DNA from: Chitinophagia bacterium | GTDB taxonomy: Bacteria; Bacteroidota; Bacteroidia; Chitinophagales; Chitinophagaceae | Length of the DNA stretch: 63,444 bases | Assembly (NCBI GenBank): GCA_021324175.1 | Contig: JAJPJP010000234.1 | Span: 1-63,444 of the forward strand | Direction: 5' to 3' | Part shown: piece after piece, positions 161 to 26,580 of the stretch | Position numbering within the stretch: the stretch's first letter is position 1 | Layout: every line of letters begins with the position of its first letter | Made by a program: the position numbers and the translations under genes | The notes under the pieces: generated by a model | The model's database searches: none | Told to the model about the DNA's origin: nothing | Seen by the model: only the letters and a program-made list of their open reading frames with translations

Positions 161-1408
161 ATGACTTCAGCAATTCATCGCAAACAGCTTTTTGTTGCCG
201 CGCGTGTCGCGCTCATCTTTACGGCCATGACCTTTGCATTTCGTGCGTCGTTAGAAGGTGTTTGGGGTGATTCATTTCATTTAACCAAGGAACAGCTCGG
301 ATGGATATTCAGCCCGGCCTTTTGGGGCTTTACCCTGGCGATGGTTTTTGGAGGCCCGCTTTGCGATGTAATTGGAATGAAAAGACTGCTGGGCATCGCA
401 TTTATCGGTCATGTGGCGGGTGTAGTTATATACCTGGTGGCCAAAGATGCCACCATGCTTTTTGCAGGAACGGTTTGCATCGGCGTTGGAAACGGGATGG
501 TCGAAGCGGCCTGTAATCCCCTGACGGTAACGCTTTTCCCCGAAAATAAAACGACGATGTTGAACAGGTTTCATGTTTGGTTTCCCGGCGGAATAGTCAT
601 TGGCGGATTGCTTTCTTATGTTTTTGTCGAACAATTGAAAATTGACTGGCATTACCTCATTGCCATTCTGTTTATTCCGGCGGTTATTTACGGACTCATG
701 TTCCTTAAGCTAAAGTTTCCACAGACGGAACGGGTGACAAAAGGTGTCAGCACAAAACAAATGTTTGCATCCTGCCTTACACCGCTGTTTCTGATTATTT
801 TCATTTGCATGTTTATGACAGGTGCTACGGAATTGGGTACCAACACCTGGATTGTCGCACTCCTGCAGGGAGCCAATGTGTCAGGTATCTTGGTTCTCGT
901 GTTTATTAATGGATTGATGGCTATAGGTCGATCGTTTGCCGGGCCGGTCGTGCACCGCCTCAACCCGAATGGCATGCTGATTACGTCCGCCGTGCTTGCC
1001 TGCATTGGCCTTATTCTGCTGAGCAGATCGAGCGGCTATATGGCATTCGGCGCTGCATTCGTATTTGCGGCAGGAGTTTGTTTTTTTTGGCCGACCATGC
1101 TTGGATTTGTTTCCGAATATTTGCCAAATACCGGTGCGTTGGGCTTGTCACTTATGGGTGGCGCGGGAATGTTCTCGACTTCTTTCATAATTCCCTTCAT
1201 GGGTAAATGGTATGATGATTTCAAAAGTGGAGCCCTGGCCAAAGGTTTGACTGATGCCCAGGCCAACGCTGCAGCGGGGTCAGACACCCTGATGAAAGTT
1301 GCCATAATGCCTGTGATTTTGATCGTTATTTTCTCGCTGATCTATTTCGCCAGGAGAAAGCACTACGCAGCGCCAAAAGAGGTTCTCGATCCTGTAGCGG
1401 AATTGTGA
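161..1408 (+). CDS. MFS sugar permease
   Basis: Protein of 415 residues with about twelve hydrophobic segments, the size and layout of a major facilitator superfamily transporter. The N-terminal half contains a G-x-L-x-D-x-x-G-x-K-R stretch (around residues 65-75, GPLCDVIGMKR), the MFS loop 2-3 signature. The composition resembles the fucose/nucleoside-permease side of the superfamily common in Bacteroidota sugar loci. It lies 94 nt upstream of a TIM-barrel sugar isomerase and heads a co-directional run ending in five GMC dehydrogenases, so a sugar or oxidised-sugar substrate is inferred. The substrate cannot be read from sequence. The start ATG is the first in frame; no clear Shine-Dalgarno is present, as usual in this phylum. 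Confidence 0.85.
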   Translation: MTSAIHRKQLFVAARVALIFTAMTFAFRASLEGVWGDSFHLTKEQLGWIFSPAFWGFTLAMVFGGPLCDVIGMKRLLGIAFIGHVAGVVIYLVAKDATMLFAGTVCIGVGNGMVEAACNPLTVTLFPENKTTMLNRFHVWFPGGIVIGGLLSYVFVEQLKIDWHYLIAILFIPAVIYGLMFLKLKFPQTERVTKGVSTKQMFASCLTPLFLIIFICMFMTGATELGTNTWIVALLQGANVSGILVLVFINGLMAIGRSFAGPVVHRLNPNGMLITSAVLACIGLILLSRSSGYMAFGAAFVFAAGVCFFWPTMLGFVSEYLPNTGALGLSLMGGAGMFSTSFIIPFMGKWYDDFKSGALAKGLTDAQANAAAGSDTLMKVAIMPVILIVIFSLIYFARRKHYAAPKEVLDPVAEL

Positions 1409-1502: not shown

Positions 1503-2396
1503 ATGCCTAAGAAACATTCGCGACGCAGTGCCATCAAAAGCTTTGTCGCTGGAACTGCAGCACTGGGTACGGCAGCGATTCTACCTTCATATGCGCTCAG
1601 CGAAAATAAAATACAAAATAAATCTTCTTTGAAAGGCAACATCAATCACTCGGTCTGCCAGTGGACATATGGCTTCCTTTCGCTGGATGATTTGTGCAAA
1701 GTCGTCAAACAAATCGGGTTTAGCGCCATAGATCTTTTGGGACCGAAAGACTGGCCTACGATTCAGCAATACGGCATTTATTCTTCGATGTGTTATCACG
1801 GGGGTACGGTCAGCCTAACCGACGGGTTTAATGATAAAAAGTTTCACGACCAGCTTGTTAAAGAGTATCTCGATGTTTTTCCGCTGATGGTAAAGGCGGG
1901 CTACAAAGATGTGATTTGCTTCAGCGGTAGCCGGCGGGGTATGGATGATGAAACAGGCTTGAAAAACTGCGTTGATGGTCTGAAGCGGATACTTCCCGGA
2001 GCTGAAAAGAATGGCCTTACCGTACATATGGAACTGCTGAATAGTAAAATCGATCACAAAGACTACATGTGTGATCGCACACCATGGGGCGTCGAGCTTT
2101 GCAAGCGAATCGATTCGCCCAATTTCAGACTGTTATATGATATTTACCACATGCAAATCGATGAGGGAGATGTGATTCGGACCATTAAACAAAACGTCCA
2201 ATATCTTGGACACTATCATACGGGAGGCGTGCCTGGAAGAAATGAGATCGACCAGTCGCAGGAATTATATTATCCGGCAATTATGAAGGCAATTCTTGAG
2301 ACCGGATACAAGGGCTATGTGGCGCAAGAGTTTATTCCGGCAGCACCTGATAAAGTAGCTTCTTTGAAAAAAGCGGTGGAGACTTGCGACGTTTAA
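1503..2396 (+). CDS. Tat-exported TIM-barrel sugar isomerase/epimerase
   Basis: Protein of 297 residues. The N-terminus has a twin-arginine signal (S-R-R-S-A-I-K-S-F, residues 6-14, then a hydrophobic Ala/Gly-rich segment), so the folded enzyme is predicted to be exported to the periplasm. The mature part fits the AP-endonuclease-2/hydroxypyruvate-isomerase-like TIM barrel, with a metal-ligand type segment (H-M-E-L-L-N) near the middle, D-I-Y-H-M-Q-I further on, G-H-Y-H-T-G-G-V-P-G and a late Q-E-F. Relatives are encoded beside GMC dehydrogenases in 3-keto-glycoside pathways, where they act on oxidised sugars. It sits 49 nt before the first of five GMC genes. A role as isomerase or lyase of a keto-sugar is inference. 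Confidence 0.8.
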   Translation: MPKKHSRRSAIKSFVAGTAALGTAAILPSYALSENKIQNKSSLKGNINHSVCQWTYGFLSLDDLCKVVKQIGFSAIDLLGPKDWPTIQQYGIYSSMCYHGGTVSLTDGFNDKKFHDQLVKEYLDVFPLMVKAGYKDVICFSGSRRGMDDETGLKNCVDGLKRILPGAEKNGLTVHMELLNSKIDHKDYMCDRTPWGVELCKRIDSPNFRLLYDIYHMQIDEGDVIRTIKQNVQYLGHYHTGGVPGRNEIDQSQELYYPAIMKAILETGYKGYVAQEFIPAAPDKVASLKKAVETCDV

Positions 2397-2445: not shown

Positions 2446-4122
2446 ATGTCCGACAATGTTTACGACGCGATCGTGATCGGTTCAGGAATCAGCGGCGGCT
2501 GGGCTGCCAAAGAATTGACTGAAAAAGGTTTGAAGACCATTATGCTTGAAAGGGGCATGGACATCGTGCACCGCAAGGATTACACCGAAGCAAACAAGGA
2601 GGCCTGGGACTATCCACACCGAGGCGAGCGGACCCAGCAAATGATAAAAAATTATCCGGTTCTTAAGAGAGACTATCCTTTGAATGAGCGAAACCTTTCT
2701 TGGTGGGCAAGCGACCAGGATTCGCCATATACCGAGATCAAGCGTTTTGACTGGTTTCGCGGCTACCATGTGGGCGGGCGTTCCCTCTTGTGGGGAAGAC
2801 AGAGCTACCGCTGGAGCGACTTGTATTTTGAAGAAAATGGCAAACAGGGAATCGGAGTAGACTGGCCGGTCAGGTATAAGGATATTGAGCCGTGGTATAG
2901 TTATGTCGAAAAATTCGCCGGAATCAGTGGATCAAAAGAAGGCCTTCCGGAGTTGCCTGACAGCGAATTCCTGCCTCCCATGGAAATGACCTGCGTTGAA
3001 AAAGACGTATCAGCAAGGATTAAGGAACATTACAAGGGCGCACGAAAAATGATTATCGGACGTTGCGCTCATGCCACCGTGCCCTTAAACGGCAGGCAAT
3101 GCGTGTATCGTGACAAGTGCTGGTATGGATGTCCGTTTGGCGGTTATTTTAGCACGCAGTCGGCAACCCTTCCTGCAGCAATGGCCACCAATAAGCTCAC
3201 GTTGCGCCCATGGAGCATCGTTACCAAGATTTTGTATGATAAAGACAAGAAACGCGCTATTGGCGTTGAAGTACTTGACGCGCAGACCATGAAGACCATT
3301 GAGTACAGGGCTAAAATTGTATTCCTGAACGCATCTACATTAAATAGTGCATGGGTACTTTTGAACTCTGCAACCGATGTTTGGCCCGACGGACTTGGAA
3401 GCAGCAGCGGTGAACTGGGGCACAACCTGATGGATCATCACCTGGATGTTTTCGCAGGCGGTACGATGGAAGGATACGATGACAAATATTACTTTGGACG
3501 CCGCGCAAATGGCGTGTATATTCCCCGGTACAGGAATTTCTTTGGAGACAAGCGTGATTATATTCGAGGTTTCGGCTATCAGGGTGGCGGAGGACGTGAT
3601 GGATGGGGCCACAATGTTGCGGAATATAGCATTGGCAAGGATTTTAAGGAAGCGCTCTGCGAGCCGGGAGGCTGGAGTTTTGGAATGGGAGGTTTTGGTG
3701 AAACGTTGCCGTATCATGACAACAAAGTGACTCTCGACAAGACTAGAAAAGACAAATGGGGTTTGAATATCCTGGCTATCGATGCAGAAATTAAGGACAA
3801 TGAACTAAAGATGCGTAAGGATATGCTTAACGACGCCAAAGAAATGCTCGAGGCGGCGGGAGTTAAGAATGTACAGGGCGGTGACAGCGAACCTTACCTT
3901 GGCCGCGGCATACATGAAATGGGAACTGCACGGATGGGCCGAGACCCCAAGACTTCAGTACTCAACAAGTGGAATCAGGTATGGGATGCGCCCAATGTTT
4001 TTGTTACGGATGGCTCTTTTATGGCATCAACTGCATGCCAGAATCCTTCATTGACATACATGGCTTTTACGGCTCGTGCTGCGGACCACGCAGTAAGCGA
4101 ATTAAAAAAAATGAACCTTTGA
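2446..4122 (+). CDS. GMC-family FAD glycoside dehydrogenase, paralog 1
   Basis: Protein of 558 residues of the glucose-methanol-choline oxidoreductase family, gluconate/glucoside dehydrogenase branch. The FAD-binding Rossmann motif G-S-G-I-S-G is at residues 12-17. Cys219, Cys225 and Cys229 (C-x5-C-x3-C-P) match the spacing of the 3Fe-4S ligands known from FAD-dependent glucose dehydrogenase. The active-site His490 (H-E-M-G-T-A-R-M-G) and Asn533 (Q-N-P-S) are both present. There is no signal peptide of its own, so export is probably by piggy-back on the Tat-signal subunit encoded at 11349. First of five tandem paralogs. Glycoside (for example C3) oxidation is inferred from family and context; the sugar is unknown. 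Confidence 0.88.
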   Translation: MSDNVYDAIVIGSGISGGWAAKELTEKGLKTIMLERGMDIVHRKDYTEANKEAWDYPHRGERTQQMIKNYPVLKRDYPLNERNLSWWASDQDSPYTEIKRFDWFRGYHVGGRSLLWGRQSYRWSDLYFEENGKQGIGVDWPVRYKDIEPWYSYVEKFAGISGSKEGLPELPDSEFLPPMEMTCVEKDVSARIKEHYKGARKMIIGRCAHATVPLNGRQCVYRDKCWYGCPFGGYFSTQSATLPAAMATNKLTLRPWSIVTKILYDKDKKRAIGVEVLDAQTMKTIEYRAKIVFLNASTLNSAWVLLNSATDVWPDGLGSSSGELGHNLMDHHLDVFAGGTMEGYDDKYYFGRRANGVYIPRYRNFFGDKRDYIRGFGYQGGGGRDGWGHNVAEYSIGKDFKEALCEPGGWSFGMGGFGETLPYHDNKVTLDKTRKDKWGLNILAIDAEIKDNELKMRKDMLNDAKEMLEAAGVKNVQGGDSEPYLGRGIHEMGTARMGRDPKTSVLNKWNQVWDAPNVFVTDGSFMASTACQNPSLTYMAFTARAADHAVSELKKMNL

Positions 4123-4172
4123 ATTGCATGAATTTCCTCAATTGATTAATTAAAAATTCTAAATAACAGGTT

Positions 4173-5849
4173 ATGCCCGATAATGTCTATGACGCAATTG
4201 TGATAGGTTCAGGGATCAGCGGCGGTTGGGCCGCCAAGGAACTTACAGAAAAAGGATTAAAAGTGTTGATGCTGGAACGGGGGGAGCATATTGAACACGT
4301 CAAAGATTACAAGAATGCCAATAAAGAAGCTTGGGACTACCCGCATCGGGGAAGGGCGACTGCCCAGATGAAAAAGGATTATCCTGTCCTGAGGCGCGAT
4401 TATCCGCTGAACGAGACTAACCTGGATTATTGGGTAAAAGATTCTGAATGTCCCTATACAGAGGTTAAACGATTCGATTGGTTTCGCGGCTATCACACCG
4501 GCGGCCGCTCGCTGATGTGGGGAAGGCAAAGCTACCGGTGGAGCGATATGAATTTTGAAGAAAATGCCCGAGATGGAATTGCCGTCGACTGGCCGATCCG
4601 GTATAAGGAAATTGCGCCGTGGTATGATCATGTCGAAAAGTTTGCAGGAATAAGTGGAAACAAAGATGGGCTCCCTCAGTTGCCTGACGGACAATTTTTG
4701 CCTCCAATGGATATGACATGCGTTGAAAAGGATGTTGCTGCAAGGCTCAAGGCAAAATATAAGAACCGTGACTTGATTATAGGGCGCACGGCCAACTTGA
4801 CGGCCCCGATCGAGGGCAGGACTCAGTGCCAATTCCGGAACAAGTGCTGGCTGGGCTGTCCTTTCGGCGCCTATTTTAGTACGCAATCATCGACGTTGCC
4901 TGCTGCGAGGGCTACCAATAATCTCACGCTGCGTCCCTGGAGCATTGTCACCAAAATTTTATTCGATAAGGATAAAAAACGTGCAGCGGGCGTCGAAGTT
5001 TTGGATGGTCAGACCAATCAGACCTATGAGTATAAGGCGAAGGTAATATTCCTGAACGCTTCCACGCTAAATAGTGCGTGGGTCCTGATGAATTCGGCTA
5101 CGGATGTCTGGCCGGATGGACTTGGCAGCAGCAGTGGCGAACTTGGTCATAACCTGATGGACCACCATCTGAATGTCGGGGCCTCGGGTGCAGTGGAAGG
5201 TTTCGAGGATAAATATTATTATGGCCGCAGGGCAAACGGAATTTACGTTCCCCGTTATAGAAATTATTTCGGAGACAAACGTGATTATATCCGCGGGTTC
5301 GGATATCAGGGCGGAAGTTCAAGGTCTGGATATAGCCGGTCTGCCGAAGAGATTGCACTTGGCGCCGATTTGAAAGAGGCATTGTGTGAGCCGGGGGCAT
5401 GGACGATGAGCCTGGGAGGATTTGGAGAGACTTTACCCTATCATGAAAATAAAGTTACTCTAGATAAAAGTAAAAAGGACAAGTGGGGTCTGCCGGTGCT
5501 TGCCATCGATGCTGAATTGAAAGAAAATGAATTAAAAATGCGAAAGGACATGCTCGAGGATGCCAAAGAAATGCTGGACTCCGTCGGTGTCAAGAATGTT
5601 CATTCGCGCGATGCAAATCCATATCTCGGCAGGGGAATCCACGAAATGGGAACCGCCAGGATGGGAAAAGATCCAAAGACTTCGGTTCTCAATAAATGGA
5701 ACCAGGTATGGGACGCTCAAAATGTATTTGTAACTGATGGCGCCTGCATGGTTTCGTCGGCCTGCCAAAACCCGTCGCTTACTTACATGGCCTTGACTGC
5801 GCGCGCGGCTGATCATGCCGTTAGCGAAATGAAGAAAAGAAATATTTGA
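4173..5849 (+). CDS. GMC-family FAD glycoside dehydrogenase, paralog 2
   Basis: Protein of 558 residues, colinear with paralog 1 and evidently its closest copy in the window. The FAD motif is at residues 12-17. The cluster-type Cys219/Cys225/Cys229 triad, His490 and the Q-N-P-S Asn are all kept. The segment before the Cys triad reads as T-A-P-I-E-G-R-T-Q, shared with paralog 3 but not paralog 1. Only 50 nt separate it from paralog 1, so co-transcription is expected. It also lacks a signal sequence. Function as periplasmic quinone- or cytochrome-linked sugar dehydrogenase follows from the family; the substrate difference from the other copies cannot be read. Confidence 0.87.
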   Translation: MPDNVYDAIVIGSGISGGWAAKELTEKGLKVLMLERGEHIEHVKDYKNANKEAWDYPHRGRATAQMKKDYPVLRRDYPLNETNLDYWVKDSECPYTEVKRFDWFRGYHTGGRSLMWGRQSYRWSDMNFEENARDGIAVDWPIRYKEIAPWYDHVEKFAGISGNKDGLPQLPDGQFLPPMDMTCVEKDVAARLKAKYKNRDLIIGRTANLTAPIEGRTQCQFRNKCWLGCPFGAYFSTQSSTLPAARATNNLTLRPWSIVTKILFDKDKKRAAGVEVLDGQTNQTYEYKAKVIFLNASTLNSAWVLMNSATDVWPDGLGSSSGELGHNLMDHHLNVGASGAVEGFEDKYYYGRRANGIYVPRYRNYFGDKRDYIRGFGYQGGSSRSGYSRSAEEIALGADLKEALCEPGAWTMSLGGFGETLPYHENKVTLDKSKKDKWGLPVLAIDAELKENELKMRKDMLEDAKEMLDSVGVKNVHSRDANPYLGRGIHEMGTARMGKDPKTSVLNKWNQVWDAQNVFVTDGACMVSSACQNPSLTYMALTARAADHAVSEMKKRNI

Positions 5850-5927
5850 GTTTGCGAATAGCGTAACTGGTTTTGCAACCGGCGACGCAGTTGTCTGCCA
5901 ATATTAATACCGAACAAAGTAAAACTT

Positions 5928-7643
5928 ATGCCCGGAGATTCAGTTCTTGTTAATAACAAAGCAAAACTGCAAAATACCTATGATGCAATTGTCATCGGTT
6001 CAGGTATTAGCGGTGGCTGGGCTGCTAAGGAGTTGACTGAGCAGGGGCTTAGGGTGCTGATGCTTGAGCGCGGAAGAGATTTTGAGCATGTTAAAGACTA
6101 CAAGTCTGCGACCAAGGATCCCTGGGAATTTCCTCATCATGGCCGGGCGACGCAGGAACAGTTAAAACAACATCCAATTATTGCTCGCACCTGGGGGAAA
6201 TACGAACCTATCATGGATTATTGGGCCAACGATGTTGACTGCCCCTACACGGAAACGAAGCCTTTCAAGTGGTGGCGATCATACCAGCTTGGGGGACGTT
6301 CAATCCTATGGGGCCGTCAAAGCTACCGCTGGAGCGATTTCGATTTTGGAGCCAATGAAAAAGACGGGTGGGCAATCGACTGGCCGATTCGGTACAAGGA
6401 TATTTCACCGTGGTATGGTCATGTCGAAAAATTTATCGGTGTCAACGGTTCTCTCGAAAACCTGCCGCAACTCCCAGACGGTCATTTTTTGCCGCCAATG
6501 GAACTTAACTGCGTTGAAAAAGATGTATCGGCCCGCATTCGCGAAAAATACCAAGGGCAGCGCCACCTGATCATCGGGCGCAGTGCAAACCTGACAGCAC
6601 CAATCGAAGGCAGGACCCAGTGTCAATATCGCAACCGCTGTTGGGAAGGCTGCCCCTTCGGGGCCTATTTTAGCACCCAGTCATCTACGCTGCCTGCGGC
6701 CAGCAAAACGGGCAAACTTACCGTTCGACCATGGAGTATCGTTACCAGGATCCTTTATGATAAGGATAAGAAGAAAGCAGCCGGCGTGGAAATTCTAGAT
6801 GCCCAGAACAATCAGACTTATTCCTATTATTCCAAAATTGTTTTTGTGAATGCTTCGGCGCTTAACAGCGCATGGGTGCTGATGAATTCGGCAACCGATG
6901 TTTGGCCGGATGGCCTCGGCAGCAGTTGTGGCGAATTGGGACATAACGTGATGGACCACCATTATAACCTCGGAGCCTCGGGTATCGTCGATGGTTATGA
7001 AGACAAATATTATTATGGCCGCAGGCCTAACGGGTTCTACATCGTTCGTTTCGCCAACCTTTTTGACGATAAGCGTGAATTCATGCGTGGATTCGGATAC
7101 CAGGGTGGCGCCGGACGGGAAGGTTGGAGTAGAAGTGTTGCCGAGCTGAGCATAGGAGCAAAGTTCAAAGAAGAATTGGCAGAGCCAGGATCATGGACGA
7201 TCGGCATGACAGGGTTTGGAGAGTTGTTGCCCTATCACGACAACAAAATTTCACTCGATAAAAATAAAAAAGACAAGTGGGGACTGCCTATCCTTGCTAT
7301 GGACGCTGAATTAAAAGATAATGAAAAGAAAATGCGAAAGGCAATTGTAGAAGAGGCAAAGGCCATGTTTGAATCGGCAGGTGTCCGGGATGTGCAGACC
7401 TGGGATAATGGTCATGAAATCGGCGACGGGATCCATGAAATGGGAACAGCCAGGATGGGGAGAGATTCGAAAACATCTGTACTCAACATGCATAACCAGG
7501 TGTGGGACGCCAGGAATGTTTTTCTCACTGACGGCGCATGCATGGTGTCAAGCGCATGTCAAAATCCTTCCCTGACTTATATGGCACTTACTGCGAGGGC
7601 TGCAAACTTCGCAGTCGATGAGTTAAAGAAAGGGAACATTTAA
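5928..7643 (+). CDS. GMC-family FAD glycoside dehydrogenase, paralog 3
   Basis: Protein of 571 residues of the same family, about 13 residues longer than paralogs 1 and 2. Much of the difference is a hydrophilic N-terminal extension before the G-S-G-I-S-G FAD motif. The putative 3Fe-4S ligands are Cys232, Cys238 and Cys242; the active-site pair is His503 and Asn546. The substrate-side segment near residues 80-100 differs from paralogs 1 and 2 (T-W-G-K-Y-E-P-I-M-D instead of the D-Y-P-L-N-E type), which suggests a changed sugar site. It lies 78 nt after paralog 2 in the same operon. Confidence 0.87.
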   Translation: MPGDSVLVNNKAKLQNTYDAIVIGSGISGGWAAKELTEQGLRVLMLERGRDFEHVKDYKSATKDPWEFPHHGRATQEQLKQHPIIARTWGKYEPIMDYWANDVDCPYTETKPFKWWRSYQLGGRSILWGRQSYRWSDFDFGANEKDGWAIDWPIRYKDISPWYGHVEKFIGVNGSLENLPQLPDGHFLPPMELNCVEKDVSARIREKYQGQRHLIIGRSANLTAPIEGRTQCQYRNRCWEGCPFGAYFSTQSSTLPAASKTGKLTVRPWSIVTRILYDKDKKKAAGVEILDAQNNQTYSYYSKIVFVNASALNSAWVLMNSATDVWPDGLGSSCGELGHNVMDHHYNLGASGIVDGYEDKYYYGRRPNGFYIVRFANLFDDKREFMRGFGYQGGAGREGWSRSVAELSIGAKFKEELAEPGSWTIGMTGFGELLPYHDNKISLDKNKKDKWGLPILAMDAELKDNEKKMRKAIVEEAKAMFESAGVRDVQTWDNGHEIGDGIHEMGTARMGRDSKTSVLNMHNQVWDARNVFLTDGACMVSSACQNPSLTYMALTARAANFAVDELKKGNI

Positions 7644-7708
7644 TCGTTTTCTATCAAAGGCAATGACGTACAAATCTGATTGTGTTTTATTGCCACAATT
7701 TATAATTT

Positions 7709-9439
7709 ATGCCTGGAGGAGACAGTACAGTAAATATTAATTCGGGGGGCGTCAGAAAAAATTCTTTTGATGCGATTGTTATCGGCAGCGGTATTAGCGG
7801 AGGCTGGGCAGCAAAAGAGTTATGTGATCATGGCGTTAAAACATTGTTGCTGGAAAGAGGAAAAAATGTCGTGCACCTGAAGGATTATCCTACTGCTACC
7901 AAGAATCCCTGGGATTTTCCCCATCGGGGCCAGATGCCTGTAAAGATTACTGATGAGAACCCCGTGGTTTCAAGGTGCTACGCATTTAGCGAAGCTTCAC
8001 AGCATTTTTTTGTCAAAGATACGCAGCACCCTTACGTCCAGGAGAAACCATTTGACTGGATCAGGGGCTACCAGGTCGGAGGGAAGTCGCTTCTTTGGGC
8101 GCGCCAGACACAACGATGGAGCAGGTTTGATTTTGACGGACCGGCGAGGGACGGATTTGCCGAATGGCCCATCACTTACGCAGATATTGCTCCCTGGTAT
8201 TCTCACGTCGAAATTTTTGCCGGCATTAGCGGAAACCGCGACGGACTCGAGACCTTGCCAGACGGGGAGTTTCTTCCGCCGTGGGAGCTAAACTGTGTCG
8301 AAAAAAATATACAGGAAAAAATTGCGTCAAGCTATAAAGACAGGTTTCCAATTGTGGGCAGGTGCGCGCACCTGACCAAGCCGAATCCCATTCACATTGA
8401 GCAGGGAAGGGGCCAATGTCAAGCCAGGAGCCTCTGTGAGCGAGGCTGCCCATTCGGAGGGTATTTCAGCAGCAACTCCGCGACAATTCCTTGGGCGCTG
8501 AAGACGGGTAACCTGACCCTCCAACCTGATTCAGTCGTACATTCCATCATCTATGATGATAAAAAAGGCAAGGCGGTCGGGGTAAGGGTCATTGATGCTC
8601 ATACTAAACAGGCTACGGAGTATTTTGCACGAATTATTTTTGTTAATGCGGCCTGCCTCAACAGCAACCTCATTCTTCTTAATTCAACTTCGACCCGGTT
8701 TCCAAACGGACTCGGTAACGACAATGGATTATTGGGCAAATACGTATGTTTTCATAATTATCGCGGCACGGTGTCTGCATCATACGACGGCCCGATGGAT
8801 AAATACTATTTTGGCAGGCGGCCCACGCAGGCCATGATGCCTAATTTCAGAAATGTCCGAAAACAGGAAATGGATTTTCAGCGAGGTTACATGGTGCACT
8901 ATAGTGCCGGCAGAGGAAACGCAAATGTAGGACCCGGAGAAGAAGAAATGGGAGGAAAATTCAAAGAAACTATATCTGAAGCGGGCGATTGGGGTGTATT
9001 TGCGATGATGCAGGGAGAAACGATTCCTAAAGAAAATAATCACGTTCGGCTGAGCTCTGATAAGAACGACGACTGGGGCATTCCTCAACTCATTACATCT
9101 GTCGGATATGATGATAATGATGAAAAAGTGCTCAACGACTTTCTCGACCAAACTGCCGAGATGCTGGAAAAGGGCGGCTGTAAAAATATTCAGAGGCGGG
9201 ACAGCAAGCAGGCGCCGGGCCTGGATATCCATGAGATGGGCGGATGCCGAATGGGTAAGGATCCGAAAAAATCAATGCTGAACAGTTGGAACCAATTCCA
9301 CAATGTGCCGAATGTTTTTGTTACGGACGGGGCCTGCATGGCATCAACAAGTACGCAAAATCCGTCGATTACCTTCATGGCATTGACGGCAAGGGCAGCG
9401 AATCACGCAGTCGAAGAATTGAAAAAAGGAAACGTTTGA
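7709..9439 (+). CDS. GMC-family FAD glycoside dehydrogenase, paralog 4
   Basis: Protein of 576 residues and first member of the second subgroup. It has a distinct 20-residue N-terminus before the FAD motif and an insertion ending I-E-Q-G-R-G-Q just before the cluster motif. Cys237, Cys243 and Cys247 keep the C-x5-C-x3-C-P spacing. The catalytic-type residues His508 (H-E-M-G-G-C-R-M-G) and Asn551 (Q-N-P-S) are present. The surrounding G-G-C replaces the G-T-A of paralogs 1-3. No signal peptide. Start ATG at 7709 follows an AT-rich leader. Confidence 0.87.
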   Translation: MPGGDSTVNINSGGVRKNSFDAIVIGSGISGGWAAKELCDHGVKTLLLERGKNVVHLKDYPTATKNPWDFPHRGQMPVKITDENPVVSRCYAFSEASQHFFVKDTQHPYVQEKPFDWIRGYQVGGKSLLWARQTQRWSRFDFDGPARDGFAEWPITYADIAPWYSHVEIFAGISGNRDGLETLPDGEFLPPWELNCVEKNIQEKIASSYKDRFPIVGRCAHLTKPNPIHIEQGRGQCQARSLCERGCPFGGYFSSNSATIPWALKTGNLTLQPDSVVHSIIYDDKKGKAVGVRVIDAHTKQATEYFARIIFVNAACLNSNLILLNSTSTRFPNGLGNDNGLLGKYVCFHNYRGTVSASYDGPMDKYYFGRRPTQAMMPNFRNVRKQEMDFQRGYMVHYSAGRGNANVGPGEEEMGGKFKETISEAGDWGVFAMMQGETIPKENNHVRLSSDKNDDWGIPQLITSVGYDDNDEKVLNDFLDQTAEMLEKGGCKNIQRRDSKQAPGLDIHEMGGCRMGKDPKKSMLNSWNQFHNVPNVFVTDGACMASTSTQNPSITFMALTARAANHAVEELKKGNV

Positions 9440-9506
9440 CATCAGGGCTCGCATTGGGCTGCATTGAGCAGGATGGCTTGCGGGGCCGATATAAACAAAA
9501 TATTCT

Positions 9507-11237
9507 ATGCCAGGAGACAGTACGGTAAATATCAATTCCGGCGGCGCTGCCAAAAATTCCTATGACGCCATTGTCATCGGCAGCGGCATCAGCGGAGGCT
9601 GGGCCGCCAAGGAACTTTGTGATCTTGGGCTGAAAACTTTAGTCCTGGAGCGTGGCAGAATGGTTGTACATAACAAGGATTACCCTACGGCCACGATGAA
9701 TCCCTGGAATTTTCCGCATCGTGGCGTGATGCCCCGGAAATTTGTCGAAGAAAATCCGCTGATCACGGAAGCGGCGGGTTTTGACGAATCTACGTCACAT
9801 TTTTTTATAAAAGATAAGGACCACCCTTATGTTCAGGAAAAGCCATTTGAATGGATAAGGGGATACCAGGTCGGGGGAAAGTCGATTATTTGGGGAAGGG
9901 CCTGCCCGCGATGGAGCAAGTACGAGTTTATCAACCCGGCGCGGTATGGTTACGGCATAGAGTGGCCGATCAGTTACGATGATATTGCACCATGGTATTC
10001 GCACGTTGAGTTGTTTGCCGGCATTTGCGGCAATCGTGATGGCCTAGAAGCAATGCCTGACGGTGAATATCTGCCACCCTTTGACTTCAATTGCCCCGAA
10101 AAGGACCTTCGCGACAAGATCATGACGCATTACAAGGATCGATTCATGATCCAGGGTCGATGGGCTCAACTGACCAAACCACAGCCCATCCATATCCAGC
10201 AGGGCAGGGGCCAATGCCAGGCAAGGGACGAGTGCATGCGCGGCTGCCCGTTTGGCGGGTATTTTAGTTCAGTATCTTCCACGTTGCCTTGGGCAGAAAG
10301 GACGGGCAACCTCACTATCCGGCCATTTTCCGTTGTACACTCCATCATTTACGACGAGAAAAAAAATAAGGCGACCGGGGTAAGAGTAATTGATGCGAAT
10401 TCAAAACAGGCCACTGATTATTATGCGCGTGTTATCTTCCTGAATGCATCAGCATTGAACAGCAATCTTATCCTGCTTAATTCCACTTCCGGAAGATTTC
10501 CCAACGGATTCGGCAATGATAACGGCCTTTTGGGCAAATACGCATGTTTCCAAAATTATCGCGGGTCAGTTGGGGGTGAAGTGGATGGATACATGGACAA
10601 ATATTTCTACGGACGCAGGACGGCAGAATGCATGATGGCAAATTTCAGGAATATCCACAAAAATGATATGGATTTCGTTGGGGGTTATATGGCGTTTATG
10701 GGATGCTACAGGGAGCGGGGCAATGGCGATTCGGTAAGTGACCAGATAGGCGCTGCGTACAAGGACGCGATGTCAGAAGCAGGACCCTGGAAGATCTATA
10801 TCTATATGCAGGGAGAAACTGTTCCCAAGGAAACGAACAGCCTGACGCTGAGTAAGGATAAAAAAGACCAATGGGGAATTCCGCTTCTTGTCACCAACGT
10901 GGCCTATGACGACAATGACGAGAAGCTGCTCAAGGATTTCCTGACGCAAAGCAGCGAGATGTTTGATAAATGCGGGATAAAGAATATACAGCATCACGAT
11001 AATCATTGGGCGCCTGGAAGGGATATCCATGAGATGGGAGGATGCCGCATGGGTAAAAGTCCGAAGACTTCCTTACTGAATGGCTGGAACCAGTTTCATC
11101 AGTGCAAGAATGTTTTCGTTACCGATGGCGCATGTATGACCAGTACGGCTAACCAAAGCCCTTCAATTTTTTACATGGCATTGACTGCGCGTGCCGCAAA
11201 TTATGCAGTCGCTGAAATGAAAAAAATGAATCTTTGA
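9507..11237 (+). CDS. GMC-family FAD dehydrogenase, paralog 5, altered active site
   Basis: Protein of 576 residues, closest to paralog 4 in length, N-terminus and insertion. It retains the FAD motif, the putative 3Fe-4S ligands Cys237/Cys243/Cys247 and His508. The Q-N-P-S motif of the other four copies is here Q-S-P-S: Ser551 aligns with Asn551 of paralog 4, and an Asn appears two residues earlier. In this family that Asn is the second active-site residue, so activity or substrate may be changed. The reading frame is intact and as long as its neighbour, arguing against simple decay. Last of the large subunits, 111 nt before the small subunit gene. Confidence 0.86.
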   Translation: MPGDSTVNINSGGAAKNSYDAIVIGSGISGGWAAKELCDLGLKTLVLERGRMVVHNKDYPTATMNPWNFPHRGVMPRKFVEENPLITEAAGFDESTSHFFIKDKDHPYVQEKPFEWIRGYQVGGKSIIWGRACPRWSKYEFINPARYGYGIEWPISYDDIAPWYSHVELFAGICGNRDGLEAMPDGEYLPPFDFNCPEKDLRDKIMTHYKDRFMIQGRWAQLTKPQPIHIQQGRGQCQARDECMRGCPFGGYFSSVSSTLPWAERTGNLTIRPFSVVHSIIYDEKKNKATGVRVIDANSKQATDYYARVIFLNASALNSNLILLNSTSGRFPNGFGNDNGLLGKYACFQNYRGSVGGEVDGYMDKYFYGRRTAECMMANFRNIHKNDMDFVGGYMAFMGCYRERGNGDSVSDQIGAAYKDAMSEAGPWKIYIYMQGETVPKETNSLTLSKDKKDQWGIPLLVTNVAYDDNDEKLLKDFLTQSSEMFDKCGIKNIQHHDNHWAPGRDIHEMGGCRMGKSPKTSLLNGWNQFHQCKNVFVTDGACMTSTANQSPSIFYMALTARAANYAVAEMKKMNL

Positions 11238-11348
11238 AACGGCGCGGCAAATGTGTGAACAGGTTTTTAAGATTAAAGAAATTTAACTCATTGCTATATC
11301 AATAAAAATCTGGAAATTTAATTTCATAACGTCAAAAAAAAATAAATT

Positions 11349-11921
11349 ATGAATAGACGTGAAGCGTTATCAAGTGTCGCACTGCTGCTGGGAGGAACCA
11401 TTGTAGGCGCGGAGGTTTTTCTGACAGGCTGCGGACCGGCCGACAAGAAATACGGAGCCAACCTCAGTTTCACTCCGGATGATGTGGCTTACCTGGATGA
11501 TATTGCCGAAACGATTATTCCGGCAACTTCCACTCCCGGTGCGAAAGATGCCAAGGTCGGTCAGTTCATGACCGTCATTGTAAACGACTGTTACGAAGAC
11601 AAGGACCAAAAAATATTCTTGGATGGGATGCAGAAGCTGAATGATGGCGCCAAGACGAAGTATAGCAAGAATTTTGTCGATTTGGCCCCGAATGACAAAC
11701 ACGATTTTCTTGTTGGACTCGATAAGGAAGCTAAAGATTACATGGCTAAGAAAAAACCAGATGAGCCTGCCCATTATTTTCGCATGATGAAGGAATTGAC
11801 GCTTTGGGGATATTTTACTTCCGAACCAGGAGCGACCCAGGCATTGCGTTATGTGGCGGTGCCAGGCAAATACGAGGGATGTATTCCATACAAAAAAGGC
11901 GACAAAGCCTGGGCTACTTAG
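11349..11921 (+). CDS. Gluconate 2-dehydrogenase subunit 3 family protein (Tat signal)
   Basis: Protein of 190 residues. The N-terminus N-R-R-E-A-L-S-S followed by a hydrophobic stretch is a twin-arginine-like signal, and it ends in L-T-G-C, a lipobox, so the mature protein may be a membrane-anchored lipoprotein. The rest (D-D-V-A-Y-L-D-D-I-A-E-T-I-I-P) matches gluconate 2-dehydrogenase subunit 3, the small subunit that escorts the FAD subunit through the Tat pathway in glucose and glucoside dehydrogenases. It is the only such gene in the window and follows five FAD subunits, so it may partner with all of them. No cytochrome c subunit gene is nearby; the electron acceptor is therefore not evident. 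Confidence 0.85.
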   Translation: MNRREALSSVALLLGGTIVGAEVFLTGCGPADKKYGANLSFTPDDVAYLDDIAETIIPATSTPGAKDAKVGQFMTVIVNDCYEDKDQKIFLDGMQKLNDGAKTKYSKNFVDLAPNDKHDFLVGLDKEAKDYMAKKKPDEPAHYFRMMKELTLWGYFTSEPGATQALRYVAVPGKYEGCIPYKKGDKAWAT

Positions 11922-11981: not shown

Positions 11982-12857
11982 CTAGATAAATAGGCGGGTA
12001 CCAGAAGCAAAACTTTCTCGAAAACCTTTTGGAGTGCAGCCCTTTTTTTTCTTGAAGATCCTGTTAAAATTGGAGATGTTGTTGAATCCGCAATTAAACG
12101 AGATCTCGGCGACGGAATGAGTCGTGTCGATCAGCATCTTGGACGCGTGCCCAAGACGGATTTCGTTAAGTGTGTCTATGAACGTATTCCCCGTCCTCTT
12201 TTTAATAAAACGGCTAAATGATACGTCGGTCATGTTAACCAATTTTGCTACTTCACCGAGCGTAACGCTCCTGTCGTAATTGATGTTCATGTATTGGAAT
12301 GCCTTTTCAATTCTGCGGCTGTTATAGCTCAATTGTGAATTGATGAACGTTGCGTCGGAAAGAGTTTTTACGTCACACAATGACAGCTCATGCAGAATGG
12401 ACATCAGTTCAAGAACTGATGCGAATCCCCCTTTTTGATCCAGCGATCTGATGCGTGCAGCAATGCGCCCTGCAACTTCACGCGGGAATGAAATGCCCCT
12501 TTGCGCCCGTTCGAAAAGGCATTTTACGAAGTTGAGCTGATTCCTGTTCAGGAATTTGTCATCAAATAGATCACGATGCCATTGGACTGTTATTTCTGTA
12601 ATCTCCCTGCTTTTGCATTGATGGGTAAACCAGGCATGATAGAGATTGGGACCAATCAGGACGAGTTCAAGATCGTCGATTACTTCAATACTGTCACCGA
12701 CAATGCGTTTGGCGCCTTTTGCATTTGAAATAAAATTGAGTTCATATTCGTCGTGGTAATGGAGTGGGAAATTGAACTCCTTTTTGACCCGCGAAAAGTG
12801 AGTGAAGCAATCATTGGGGGTTAGCGGGATAATCTCCCGCATAATATCCTTATGCAT
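11982..12857 (-). CDS. AraC-family transcriptional regulator
   Basis: The chosen start gives 291 residues; an in-frame ATG 135 nt upstream adds 45 residues that do not resemble the family start. The N-terminal part is a cupin-like sensor domain (F-P-L-H-Y-H-D-E-Y-E-L-N-F). The C-terminal hundred residues form the double helix-turn-helix AraC domain (V-T-L-G-E-V-A-K-L-V-N-M and later S-V-A-E-I-S-F-N-C-G-F-N-N-I-S-N-F-N-R-I-F-K-K). It diverges from the mannanase gene at 13126 and converges on the GMC operon. Control of the adjacent mannan genes by a sugar ligand is the natural inference. Confidence 0.88.
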   Translation of the reverse strand: MHKDIMREIIPLTPNDCFTHFSRVKKEFNFPLHYHDEYELNFISNAKGAKRIVGDSIEVIDDLELVLIGPNLYHAWFTHQCKSREITEITVQWHRDLFDDKFLNRNQLNFVKCLFERAQRGISFPREVAGRIAARIRSLDQKGGFASVLELMSILHELSLCDVKTLSDATFINSQLSYNSRRIEKAFQYMNINYDRSVTLGEVAKLVNMTDVSFSRFIKKRTGNTFIDTLNEIRLGHASKMLIDTTHSVAEISFNCGFNNISNFNRIFKKKKGCTPKGFRESFASGTRLFI

Positions 12858-13125
12858 AGTCTTGGTTGATTCCAGACAAAATATGTAGACTATTCGCTGC
12901 TTCGGCAAAAAAATATCTGAATAAAGATCGTATAGGGATAAATAAATATCATATGATCTCGCCAGATTTATGGCTTTCAAATTATTTACCATCAGGTTTT
13001 TACAGACGCTGAATTCATCAAATATGATAAACTTGGGTGAGTAATTGTCAAAAAAGTATAGATATAAGCAGGCTATTCAGTTTAGATTTGAAGAAGGATC
13101 GATTGTTCACGCAACTGGCTGCTAT

Positions 13126-14247
13126 ATGAAAAATGTTCTACTGCAGGTCATCGCTCTGCTGATCTGGATCGATTTTTCTTTTGCCCAATCCAAACCTGCT
13201 GACTCCCGGGCTACAGTAGAAACGGTCAACTTATACCATAGTCTGGCCAGATTACTCAACAAAGGCACCATGATCGGCCACCAGGATGACTTGGCTTACG
13301 GGGTCGGATGGAAGTACGTGGAGGGTCGCAGTGACATCAAAGATGTGACCGGAGACTATCCGGCCGTATACGGTTGGGAGCTTGGACGCATCGAACTGGA
13401 TCACCAGGTAAATCTCGACAGCGTGCCTTTTGAAAAAATAGCCCACTTCATCAGGCTCATTTATGACCGCGGTGGTATTGTTACCATCAGCTGGCATCTG
13501 AACAATCCGCTGACAGGCAAAACCGCCTGGGATCCGGCACCAGGCAGCGTCGCCTCGGTTTTGCCGGGTGGGGCAAAAAATGAGCTTTTTAAAAGCTGGC
13601 TGGACCGGGTAGCTTCATTCTTTCTGAGTTTAAAGGGTAATCACGGAGAACTCATTCCCGTAATATTCCGACCTTTTCACGAGTTGAACGGGAGCTGGTT
13701 TTGGTGGGGAGGCAAGAATTGCACTCCCGAGGAAACCAGGGAACTCTACCAATTTACGGTAAAATACCTGCGAGATGTAAAGCAGGTGCATAATCTGCTC
13801 TATGCCTACAATACGGATAAGTTTTATTCCCGCGCAGAATATATGGAGCGTTACCCGGGCAACGATTTCGTTGACGTGATTGGCTTTGACATCTACCAGG
13901 CATATAACACGGCCTCCAACGATAATTTTGTCAGGCAGGCGGGACTCATGCTTTCCATGCTCGACAGTGTCGCTTCCGAAAACCACAAAATACCGGCGCT
14001 GACTGAGTTTGGATATGCAGGATTGCCTGACCCTGAGTGGTGGACCCAGGTGTTTTGGAAAGCAATTGCTCCGTACAGGATCGCTTATGCGCTCGCATGG
14101 AGAAACGCCGGAGGCAAAGGCAATGGAAGCAGCGAATTTTACGTGCCATTTGATAGACAGATTTCCGCTGGGGACTTTGTCCGGTTCTACAATGAAAAAC
14201 GGACACTTTTCCAGCGGGAGATAACCAAAGAACAGGTTTATCACTAA
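13126..14247 (+). CDS. GH26 beta-mannanase, secreted
   Basis: Glycoside hydrolase family 26 endo-beta-1,4-mannanase of 373 residues. The start at 13126 was chosen because it begins directly with a signal peptide (M-K-N-V-L-L-Q..., cleavage near F-A-Q); an upstream ATG at 13045 would add 27 charged residues before it. The acid/base is Glu186 in F-H-E-L-N-G and the nucleophile Glu294 in L-T-E-F-G. Their 108-residue spacing equals that of characterised GH26 mannanases. W-F-W-W-G is the aromatic stretch after the acid/base. It is followed by a 2-epimerase and an esterase, consistent with breakdown of (acetylated) glucomannan to disaccharides. Confidence 0.9.
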   Translation: MKNVLLQVIALLIWIDFSFAQSKPADSRATVETVNLYHSLARLLNKGTMIGHQDDLAYGVGWKYVEGRSDIKDVTGDYPAVYGWELGRIELDHQVNLDSVPFEKIAHFIRLIYDRGGIVTISWHLNNPLTGKTAWDPAPGSVASVLPGGAKNELFKSWLDRVASFFLSLKGNHGELIPVIFRPFHELNGSWFWWGGKNCTPEETRELYQFTVKYLRDVKQVHNLLYAYNTDKFYSRAEYMERYPGNDFVDVIGFDIYQAYNTASNDNFVRQAGLMLSMLDSVASENHKIPALTEFGYAGLPDPEWWTQVFWKAIAPYRIAYALAWRNAGGKGNGSSEFYVPFDRQISAGDFVRFYNEKRTLFQREITKEQVYH

Positions 14248-14316
14248 AGCGTCAAACCCTGGATTTCCCGGTCTGTCTTGGCGTTAACGTTGAGGCCCCC
14301 GACTGCACACTCAGAC

Positions 14317-15537
14317 ATGCAAAATTTGATACAACGATACAAGAAAGAATTGCAGGCCGAACTTGCCAGCATCCTTCAGTATTGGGCTATTCATTCGCCT
14401 GACAATGATAAGGGCGGTTTTTACGGGCGTGTTGATGACGAAAACAATATCGATTTGAATGCCGAAAAAGGGCTGGTTTTAAACGCGCGAATCCTTTGGG
14501 CTTTTTCGGCTGCATATAACCAAACGAGAAAAGAAGAATATTTTAAACTTGCCCGTCGCGCACATCACTATTTGCTGGATCATTTCGTGGATAAGCAATT
14601 CGGGGGGGTGTTCTGGAGTGTCGATTCGCAGGGGAATCCCTCTGGTGCTAGAAAACAAATTTACGGTCAGGCATTTTACCTATATGCGCTGAGCGAATAT
14701 TATAAAGCGACCAAAGATGAATCCATTGGCGCCCAGGCCAGGGAGTTGTTCAAGACAATTGAACGACACAGCTTTGACAGCAGGCTGAAGGGATATTTTG
14801 AAGCATTTAACCGTGACTGGAAGCCCATCGAGGACCTGCGACTAAGTCCCAGGGACGGAAATTATGCCAAGACGATGAACACCCATCTTCACCTGCTCGA
14901 AGCCTATACGAACCTGTATAGTGTTTGGAGGGACGGATTCCTGGGAATGCAGATTGAAAACCTGCTCGAGGTCTTCGCTCATCATTTTATCGACAACAGG
15001 ACTAACCACCTCATGCTTTTTTTTGATGAAAACTGGACCTGCAAATCGCAATTGATCTCTTTTGGCCATGATATAGAGGCAGCATGGCTTTTGCAATACG
15101 CTGCTGAGGTCATTGGCCACAAAGGTTGGAATATTACCATGAAATCCGAAGCTCTAAGGATCACAGAAGCGGCTTCGGAAGGGTGGGAATATGATGGAGG
15201 GTTATGCTATGAAAAGCATGATGATGTCGTGAACGCGGAAAAGCATTGGTGGGTCCAGGCCGAGGCAATGGTCGGATATTTCAACGCATTTCAAATCTCT
15301 CAGCAAAAGAAATACTTTGAGCATTCCCTAAAATGCTGGGAATTTGTGAAACGTTACATCAGGGACAAAAAATTCGGCGAGTGGCACTGGGGGGTGACGA
15401 AAGATAACGAGGTGATGGCCGGCCAGGACAAGATCGGCTTTTGGAAATGCCCCTATCATAACGCCAGGGCCTGCATGGAGATCGTTAACAGAATTAAGGT
15501 GCGCGCTTATCCACCTCAAATTGTAGATTTGAAATAA
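14317..15537 (+). CDS. Cellobiose/mannobiose 2-epimerase (AGE family)
   Basis: Protein of 406 residues from the ATG at 14317; a TTG 39 nt upstream is in frame but unlikely as start. It belongs to the N-acylglucosamine 2-epimerase (alpha/alpha)6-barrel family, cellobiose 2-epimerase branch: K-G-G-F-Y-G-R-V-D near the start, N-A-R-I-L-W-A-F-S, H-L-H-L-L-E-A-Y-T, G-H-D-I-E-A-A-W-L-L, K-H-W-W-V-Q-A-E-A and W-H-W-G-V supply the barrel-centre His and Trp residues. Such enzymes convert beta-1,4-mannobiose to mannosyl-glucose. The GH26 mannanase 69 nt upstream makes that the likely reaction. The phosphorylase (GH130) that normally follows is not in the window. Confidence 0.88.
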   Translation: MQNLIQRYKKELQAELASILQYWAIHSPDNDKGGFYGRVDDENNIDLNAEKGLVLNARILWAFSAAYNQTRKEEYFKLARRAHHYLLDHFVDKQFGGVFWSVDSQGNPSGARKQIYGQAFYLYALSEYYKATKDESIGAQARELFKTIERHSFDSRLKGYFEAFNRDWKPIEDLRLSPRDGNYAKTMNTHLHLLEAYTNLYSVWRDGFLGMQIENLLEVFAHHFIDNRTNHLMLFFDENWTCKSQLISFGHDIEAAWLLQYAAEVIGHKGWNITMKSEALRITEAASEGWEYDGGLCYEKHDDVVNAEKHWWVQAEAMVGYFNAFQISQQKKYFEHSLKCWEFVKRYIRDKKFGEWHWGVTKDNEVMAGQDKIGFWKCPYHNARACMEIVNRIKVRAYPPQIVDLK

Positions 15538-15548
15538 AATTTGGTATT

Positions 15549-16226
15549 ATGAACCCCATTGGTAGGTTGTCAATTATCGCCGGACTCATGGTCATCGCAA
15601 TGTCGATGATCGTTGAAAAGCCCAAGCGTGTCATTTTTTTTGGAGATTCAATTACTCAAGCAGGCGTCAACCCGGGAGGATACATTGTCCGAATCGGAGA
15701 ATTGCTTGAGCAGAAAGGTTTGGCGAAGCAATATGAGTTGGTCGGGGCTGGTATCGGCGGCAACAAGGTATACGACCTTTATCTTCGCATGGATGACGAC
15801 GTGCTGGCAAAGAAGCCCGACATTGTGTTTATCTGGATCGGCGTGAATGATGTGTGGCATAAATCAAGTTTCGGAACAGGTACGGACGCTGACAAATTTG
15901 AAAAATTCTACGTCGCGATCATCAAAAAGTTACAAGATAAAGGGGTTCGGATCATATTATGCACTCCAGCCTGCATCGGGGAACGAACGGATTTTACCAA
16001 CCAGCAAGACGGGGATCTCAACCAGTATGCGCAAATCGTTCGAGGACTGGCTAAAAATTACCGCTGCGAATTGGTTGACCTGCGAGAGGATTTTCTCACC
16101 TATAATATGAAAAATAACCCCGATAACAAAGACCAGGGTATTCTTACGGTGGACAGGGTGCACCTCAATGATAAAGGCAACCAACTTGTCGCTGAAAAAA
16201 TGGTTGAAGTGCTTTTGTCGAAATAA
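15549..16226 (+). CDS. SGNH/GDSL-type esterase
   Basis: Protein of 225 residues starting 11 nt after the epimerase stop, so certainly co-transcribed. It has an N-terminal hydrophobic signal-like segment, then block I F-F-G-D-S-I-T with nucleophile Ser34, block II Gly (A-G-I-G-G-N), block III G-V-N-D, and block V D-R-V-H with Asp202 and His205, i.e. a complete catalytic set. Esterases of this fold include carbohydrate acetyl esterases. Next to a mannanase and a mannobiose epimerase, deacetylation of mannan is a reasonable inference, not shown. Confidence 0.85.
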   Translation: MNPIGRLSIIAGLMVIAMSMIVEKPKRVIFFGDSITQAGVNPGGYIVRIGELLEQKGLAKQYELVGAGIGGNKVYDLYLRMDDDVLAKKPDIVFIWIGVNDVWHKSSFGTGTDADKFEKFYVAIIKKLQDKGVRIILCTPACIGERTDFTNQQDGDLNQYAQIVRGLAKNYRCELVDLREDFLTYNMKNNPDNKDQGILTVDRVHLNDKGNQLVAEKMVEVLLSK

Positions 16227-26200: not shown

Positions 26201-26580
26201 CCCATTTTTCTGCCATCATCGGGCGAGTAGACCCGGCTTATTCCATATTTATGCAGTTCATTGATTTCCTGGGGTAGGATAGTTCCGCCGCCACCGCCAA
26301 ATATTCTGATATGCCCGCATCCATTTTCGTCAAGGAGGTCCTTCATGTATTTGAAGTATTCCAGGTGTCCGCCCTGGTAAGAAGTAACAGCTATGCCTTG
26401 AACGTCTTCTTCAATGGCTGCCTCCACGATTTCCTGGACACTACGGTTATGACCAAGATGGATAACTTCGGCACCCTTTGCCTGCATGATCCGGCGCATG
26501 ATATTGATCGCGGCGTCGTGACCGTCGAAAAGCGATGCTGCCGTAATAATCCTGATCTTGTTTTGTAAAGATGAAGCCAT
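23221..26580 (-). CDS. icmF: Fused isobutyryl-CoA mutase
   Basis: Protein of 1119 residues with the IcmF architecture: an N-terminal B12-binding domain (1-140) with the base-off His21 in F-D-G-H-D, a central MeaB-like G-protein chaperone domain with Walker A G-T-G-G-A-G-K-S at 194-201, a linker, and a C-terminal acyl-CoA mutase barrel (about 560-1119). The stretch [17 protein letters not shown] is the IcmF form of the substrate region and differs from methylmalonyl-CoA mutase. It interconverts isobutyryl-CoA and n-butyryl-CoA using adenosylcobalamin; some relatives also act on pivalyl-CoA. It stands alone, divergent from rhaM, with a palindrome and a -7 box just upstream. Confidence 0.93.

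Follow-up and report, generated by a model that had tools for sequence, protein, structure and literature searches.

How a single small subunit may serve a whole row of dehydrogenases is the question raised by a gene cluster at the start of contig JAJPJP010000234.1 from a Chitinophagia bacterium (Chitinophagaceae). The window analysed here is this whole contig (63,444 nucleotides; C141 in our numbering), part of a draft assembly (GCA_021324175.1) of 5.1 Mb in 450 contigs that is 88% complete. Five genes for FAD-dependent large subunits of the GMC family (G1 to G5) are followed there by one gene for a small subunit of the subunit-3 type (S3), whose leader resembles those of the twin-arginine translocation (Tat) pathway. 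The most plausible answer, and a fairly probable one, is that these genes encode the oxidative part of a 3-keto-glycoside pathway in the periplasm, in which the five GMC enzymes would be exported by their common S3.

The gene content was first proposed in a first-pass annotation, which described five intact paralogous FAD subunits with one subunit-3 gene, as well as a permease and an isomerase upstream. Open reading frames (ORFs) and Pfam comparisons confirm this composition (Table 1): all five large ORFs pass the Pfam cut-offs of both GMC_oxred_N and GMC_oxred_C, and an MFS permease and a TIM-barrel protein with an RR-type leader are both present. The eight genes from MFS to S3 lie on the plus strand with intergenic gaps of 49-111 bases, and none of their products scores above the cut-off of an NCBIfam model. 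As for their being intact, the five frames are indeed open, but G5 carries Ser551 where the other four have a catalytic Asn. Pairwise identity is 77% for G1/G2, 66% for G1/G3, 70% for G2/G3 and 67% for G4/G5, and 47-49% between G1-G3 and G4-G5.

The leaders, judged in both kinds of subunit by motif only, set the small subunit apart. The row has a PF13618 small subunit with a Tat-like leader and no leader on its large subunits. The N-terminus of S3 (MNRREAL...FLTGC) combines a twin arginine with a lipobox, so S3 is probably a Tat lipoprotein; the Tat signal proposed at first thus stands as regards the twin arginine, but a soluble Tat protein is not what the leader suggests. Among related S3 ORFs, RR occurs within the first 100 residues in 58/59, and a strict lipobox within the first 70 residues in 57/59, counted from the Met that precedes the first RR of each ORF. 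In the large subunits of the clade, the FAD motif begins after 5-30 residues with no RR ahead of it (115/117, those with a recognised motif). A search of PDB sequences with S3 gave no match at E 1.

The combination had been put forward as the best candidate for something undescribed, but its recurrence in relatives does not support a singular locus. S3 relatives were present in 102 of the 147 genomes of the family searched. The loci sampled were those that match S3 of the window best (one search, which gave the titled loci, kept the best 80 of 495) together with loci picked for their G5 gene, and given this choice the counts of GMC genes per locus (n) lean towards the kin of the window. The titled loci belong to Chitinophagaceae such as Niastella, Terrimonas, Flavihumibacter, Sediminibacterium and Pinibacter, to many uncultured Bacteroidetes and to a few Mucilaginibacter, Chryseolinea and Flexithrix. 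From 145 loci with S3, 138 had a distinct S3 and 104 the complete order of TIM barrel, GMC and S3. The order MFS-TIM barrel-(GMC)n-S3 is seen repeatedly in the family, with n=1 in 62 complete loci, n=2 in 22, n=3 in 3, n=4 in 5, n=5 in 9, n=6 in 2 and n=7 in 1. The culturable Niastella vici and N. caeni have n=2 (L150, L152). Arrays of n=2-7 thus make up 42/104 complete loci, and an array unique to the source genome is rejected. Exactly one S3 above 170 bits, the score from which a second S3 was counted, accompanies the array in 101/104 complete loci, with n up to 7. The nearest relative found (genome G282, locus L242), of the same genus and with a G5 90% identical, has by best match the same order, MFS-TIM-G1-G2-G3-G4-G5-S3.

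Two observations concern the records themselves. A Bacteroidota-type GMC-S3 pair (L195, CAJCIQ010000077.1) comes from a record titled Beijerinckiaceae, a title that is probably wrong because position and contig number match those of a genome (G145) placed in the family of the window. In three genomes of one genus (G466:C2, G500:C7, G580:C76), the GMC match carries one in-frame stop each (two TGA, one TAA).

Whether S3 is shared can be approached by counting. The first-pass annotation had named dedicated S3 genes elsewhere in the genome as what would speak against sharing, and a search for them did not overturn the proposal: an own S3 elsewhere for each paralogue is rejected by the S3 counts in both the own assembly (88% complete) and relatives. 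The own assembly holds 3 S3 genes against at least 8 GMCs with the C-x5-C-x3-C iron-sulfur (Fe-S) motif among 10 GMC matches (the one on contig C112 not judged), namely the five of the row, a lone G4-like gene on contig C313 with no S3 in view and two with an S3 of their own; the GMC on contig C100 lacks the motif. Each of the two other S3 genes adjoins a GMC of its own that is distant and of a different type. In a relative assembled in one contig (genome G141), 13 GMC matches, 10 of them of the Fe-S type, compare with 3 S3, and three of its clade GMCs stand alone with no S3 nearby (L111-L113). GMC matches outnumber S3 matches in 20/20 genomes counted (12/12 and 8/8), a loose count because PF05199 also matches GMCs without the Fe-S motif (3/13 in G141). 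Clade GMCs also stand alone, without an S3 in view, in L087 and L123-L125 and in 17 loci bearing a gene of the G5 type, treated below. All rows of the alignment, 117 clade GMCs and 3 outgroups, keep the C-x5-C-x3-C motif (120/120). Compared with G282, the eight genes of the row show nonsynonymous divergence (dN) of 0.06-0.09; dN/dS is not obtainable because synonymous sites are saturated. A side observation is that the array locus has a further GMC-S3 pair, distant in sequence and divergently encoded, beside it in six loci (L061, L064, L067, L075, L079, L082), and this pair scores like the own-genome pairs on contigs C80 and C297.

The role in 3-keto-glycoside metabolism, also suggested at first pass, gains support from the genes that accompany the array in relatives. 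In those inspected by eye, the MFS gene faces a divergent unit that encodes a Gfo/Idh/MocA oxidoreductase, another TIM barrel, a lipoprotein of 131-138 aa with a monoheme cytochrome c domain and a protein of the DUF1080 (3-keto-disaccharide hydrolase) family. All four occur in the stretch in 67/104 complete loci, a count of presence only, with strand unscored and many stretches ending before those genes. In the window, where 160 bases separate the contig start from the MFS gene that opens the row, the contig start cuts off the side of the divergent unit. Another contig of the own assembly, C350, stops within a truncated TIM-barrel gene; before it lie cytochrome c and DUF1080 genes and then, in the synteny of G282, the further neighbours known from that genome. 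For the Gfo/Idh/MocA gene of this unit, the own assembly has no close match (best 39 bits). We infer that C350 and C141 are adjacent in the genome and that the gap between them holds the Gfo gene. DUF1080 is matched seven times in the own genome, with two of the matches falling in a single reading frame; the copy on C350 is outside the window. The gene after DUF1080, ThuA-like by eye, gave no NCBIfam match.

Further indications come from the row's own TIM barrel, which is matched in NCBIfam by the hydroxypyruvate- and 2-oxo-tetronate-isomerase models, far under their cut-offs, and whose solved relatives include ketose 3-epimerases and one 3-keto-D-glucoside 4-epimerase (E 6.5e-6). Three loci (L167, L174, L188) encode, between GMC and S3, a Gfo/Idh/MocA-like protein that is about 485 aa long and begins with a Tat-like leader; the one of L167 scores 488 bits against the NCBIfam model BT_2158_fam 'glycoside 3-dehydrogenase' (cut-off 750), and this relationship ties the locus to glycoside oxidation. 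By analogy, the locus looks like one of the LacABC or glucoside-3-dehydrogenase kind, acting through 3-keto-glycosides.

Several points weigh against a common escort in such a pathway. A second S3 above 170 bits is present in three loci (L075, L098, L099; counted as n=1), each S3 behind a GMC, and some G4-related GMCs adjoin a divergent S3 of their own (74-97 bits; L116, L188, L189, L305, L307), so dedicated escorts also occur. With the assembly 88% complete, an S3 of the own genome may be missing from it. The segments presumed to face S3, placed by eye by comparison with the glucose dehydrogenase of Burkholderia cepacia (BcGDH), are not conspicuously conserved (17/73 positions at 97% or more vs 128/576 overall, counted within the clade). 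Over 96 loci, the ratio of S3 to TIM-barrel distances in arrays and single loci was 0.95 vs 1.11 in one distance bin and 1.12 vs 1.12 in another, which is no clear sign of a stronger constraint on S3 in arrays; the interface and constraint tests give no clear support either way. On the side of the pathway, the Gfo and second TIM-barrel proteins of G282 reach no NCBIfam cut-off.

Such dedicated copies are also what would be expected if S3 served one GMC, perhaps G1 or G2, and the others stayed in the cytoplasm or used another escort, clustered only through tandem duplication. That the gene in the 62 single-GMC loci is nearly always of the G1/G2 kind (best match, by eye) fits this explanation too, which we nevertheless hold to be unlikely: the Fe-S motif and a similar constraint are kept in all paralogues, the one-contig genome has three clade GMCs with no S3 nearby and three S3 genes in all, and S3 is found directly behind a lone G3-type gene (L092). 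In L071 (genome G084), moreover, an S3 of the array kind directly follows a Ser-type gene of the G5 kind, with no other clade GMC in view, which shows that a G5-type gene can be paired with S3. The choice is thus between a single escort for all these enzymes and the retention of most of them in the cell; constraint and genomic company favour one escort, and a shared S3 is supported by these patterns in the sequences.

The paralogues themselves bear on how the row is used. In a tree of 117 clade GMCs (120 rows, 3 of them outgroup), the G3 (support 100), G5 (100), G4 (94) and CX (98) clades span genera; CX has no member in the window, and G1 and G2 fall in the large remainder. A quick tree of 72 rows, for which 4/28 loci (L284, L286, L288, L289) gave no ORF meeting the filter, separates two of its twelve G4 rows from the rest, and for this reason the G4 clade is less firm. 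On the evidence of the trees the paralogues diverged long ago, and the view that the row arose by recent copying is rejected. It would accordingly be hard to regard them as alternatives used singly, by dosage or expression switching, with several perhaps near-redundant copies heading for loss. Copy number does differ among relatives, a point in favour of such use, but the supported clades spread across genera (G4 less firmly) and all paralogues are conserved at similar rates, and we consider this the least probable of the explanations, very unlikely indeed.

G5 calls for separate treatment. The catalytic pair is His and Asn in G1-G4 (4/4), and in G5 the His is kept and the Asn replaced by Ser551. 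In the set of the first tree, Ser occupies this position in 10/10 rows of the G5 clade and Asn in the other 107 clade rows and the 3 outgroups, and the position of His508 is His in 120/120 rows. Ser is likewise found in 30/30 of the best G5 matches from 394 genomes of the family (window included, some genes repeated), and in the 72-row tree all 42 Ser rows (41 distinct) fall on one side of one branch with support 100. This Ser clade, which extends over no fewer than three families within the class (f1, f3, f8), is a newly noted feature, in which Ser replaces the catalytic Asn with the His and the Fe-S cysteines retained. A decaying G5 is rejected, its dN being like that of its neighbours. No locus of the counted set has more than one Ser-type gene, and 16/104 complete loci have one. 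In the 17 loci mentioned above, the Ser-type gene is the only clade GMC, with no S3 in the stretch read (one stretch shortened by a contig end).

The uniform Ser of the 42 rows, and the fact that three (551, 554, 555) of only five columns separating G5 from the rest at 90%/90% lie at the catalytic site, might point to catalytically dead partners, for instance a substrate-binding or regulatory decoy. We consider this improbable, given that the FAD, Fe-S and His motifs are retained and that the Ser-type gene is the sole clade GMC in lone loci, some of them beside DUF1080 genes or, in one case, a GH3 gene. Among the 16/17 lone loci with neighbours listed (L256 left out), DUF1080 occurs in L244, L294, L296 and L298, a GH3 protein above the BglX cut-off in L245, ROK kinases in L245 and L259, NagB-like proteins in L245 and L294 and a ketohexokinase in L294; further neighbours were named by resemblance only, and some of these loci, such as L255 and L258, have no glycoside-catabolic neighbours. 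Because several lone Ser-type genes adjoin glycoside-catabolic genes, the enzymes are probably active, with their own substrate range, rather than dead copies.

Table 1. Features of the GMC-S3 gene row, with positions in the window and the basis of each assignment.
Feature	Position	Strand	Basis
MFS permease	161..1408	+	Pfam MFS_1 1.8e-27; MFS in the same place in many relatives
TIM-barrel AP_endonuc_2 protein, RR-type leader, isomerase/epimerase-like	1503..2396	+	Pfam AP_endonuc_2 1.5e-21; leader read from sequence
G1, GMC dehydrogenase large subunit, 558 aa	2446..4122	+	Pfam GMC_oxred_N/C; C-x5-C-x3-C and His/Asn present
G2, GMC dehydrogenase large subunit, 558 aa	4173..5849	+	Pfam GMC_oxred_N/C; C-x5-C-x3-C and His/Asn
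G3, GMC dehydrogenase large subunit, 571 aa	5928..7643	+	Pfam GMC_oxred_N/C; 22-sequence clade, support 100
G4, GMC dehydrogenase large subunit, 576 aa	7709..9439	+	Pfam GMC_oxred_N/C; 12-sequence clade, support 94
G5, GMC large subunit, Ser clade, 576 aa	9507..11237	+	Pfam GMC_oxred_N/C; tree and alignment
G5 residues 237-247, C-x5-C-x3-C Fe-S motif	10215..10247	+	Equivalent to Cys212/218/222 of BcGDH; aligned with fructose dehydrogenase
G5 His508, catalytic His retained	11028..11030	+	Alignment
G5 Ser551 replacing catalytic Asn	11157..11159	+	Alignment
S3, small hitchhiker subunit, 190 aa, twin-arginine leader and lipobox (Cys28)	11349..11921	+	Pfam Gluconate_2-dh3 2.8e-38

From gene content and company we infer how binding, export, substrates and electron route would fit together in a system with a common S3. 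The five leaderless large subunits of the Fe-S type would fold with FAD in the cytoplasm, and each would dock with the single kind of S3; the resulting S3-GMC dimer would cross the membrane by the Tat pore and then be anchored by the S3 lipid. Outside, each GMC would oxidise a different range of glycosides, by analogy at C3 (3-OH to 3-keto), and its Fe-S cluster would relay the electrons to the monoheme cytochrome c lipoprotein whose gene adjoins the array in relatives. Cleavage, rearrangement and reduction of the keto product would fall to the DUF1080, TIM-barrel and Gfo/Idh/MocA proteins, and its import to the MFS permease. Tandem duplication may have broadened the substrate range, with escort, cytochrome and downstream enzymes remaining common.

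Known systems share parts of this arrangement. In the lactose 3-dehydrogenase LacABC, LacA is the FAD-containing large subunit and LacC the small subunit. According to the available text of PMC9007349, LacABC works with a DUF1080 hydrolase in Caulobacter crescentus and has a putative equivalent in Pedobacter; there too a three-component dehydrogenase is encoded near DUF1080, transporter, epimerase and reductase genes, an arrangement also reported for Bacteroidetes, but with one lacABC set, whereas here 5 large subunits, and up to 7 in relatives, accompany each S3. The glucoside 3-dehydrogenase of Rhizobium radiobacter, likened here by description only, is an FAD dehydrogenase with a separate monoheme cytochrome c as acceptor; unlike here, an array is not mentioned in the available text (PMC9915066).

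The large subunit of BcGDH (gamma-alpha, PDB 6a2u) matches residues 19-345 of G5 (6.1e-18). As far as the available parts of the two reports go (PMC6719666, PMC9727119), BcGDH has the equivalent 3Fe-4S cysteines and a small Tat hitchhiker, and it differs in having one small per large subunit, a triheme cytochrome, an inter-subunit disulfide at Cys213 and an FAD linked to His105; its catalytic pair is His/Asn, and the numbering of its Cys residues follows PMC6719666. The place of Cys213 is taken by V or Q in the GMCs of the window. The best solved match to G5 is the large subunit of fructose dehydrogenase (PDB 7w2j, 8xcm; 2e-33 over residues 18-572), and G5 has Ile at its His, taken as equivalent to His105 of BcGDH. 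Fructose dehydrogenase has Asn where G5 has Ser and acts on another substrate. To our knowledge, no array is known for this enzyme. In the described cases of Tat hitchhiker export, as far as the available parts of these sources show, one escort serves one cargo (PMC6719666, PMC9727119), and the many-to-one ratio of large to small subunits and the Ser clade, as read from the sequences, appear to set the present loci apart from them. No description of several large subunits on one S3 was found in the literature, among titles and the starts of abstracts, by searches of which not all had this aim and with subscription journals mostly uncovered, which is not proof of absence.

Beyond the row, the window contains at 11982-16226 what looks from its genes like a small mannan-use unit, with an AraC-type regulator on the minus strand facing GH26, after which come genes for a protein of the N-acylglucosamine 2-epimerase family and for a GDSL esterase; AraC-like and GH26-like ORFs, judged by eye, also adjoin the array in G282. 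At 23221-26580, a fusion of 1119 aa joins B12-binding, MeaB GTPase and methylmalonyl-CoA-mutase domains, a layout that we take to be that of IcmF.

A last question is how far the idea of a common escort could be carried. One Tat lipoprotein escort might export an interchangeable pool of 5-7 clustered as well as unlinked GMCs feeding one cytochrome c, with one member belonging to a Bacteroidota subfamily that oxidises glycosides by a His-Ser pair, a combined scenario that we put forward tentatively, as a possibility that is rather doubtful as a whole. The fixed change from Asn to Ser offers a direct test of how far GMC enzymes need their second catalytic residue. If true, a multi-cargo escort would lend itself to the exchange of catalytic subunits while the partner for electron transfer stays the same, which would be useful for electrode-coupled enzymes. 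For the organisms themselves, it would explain how these Bacteroidota broaden the range of glycosides that they oxidise.

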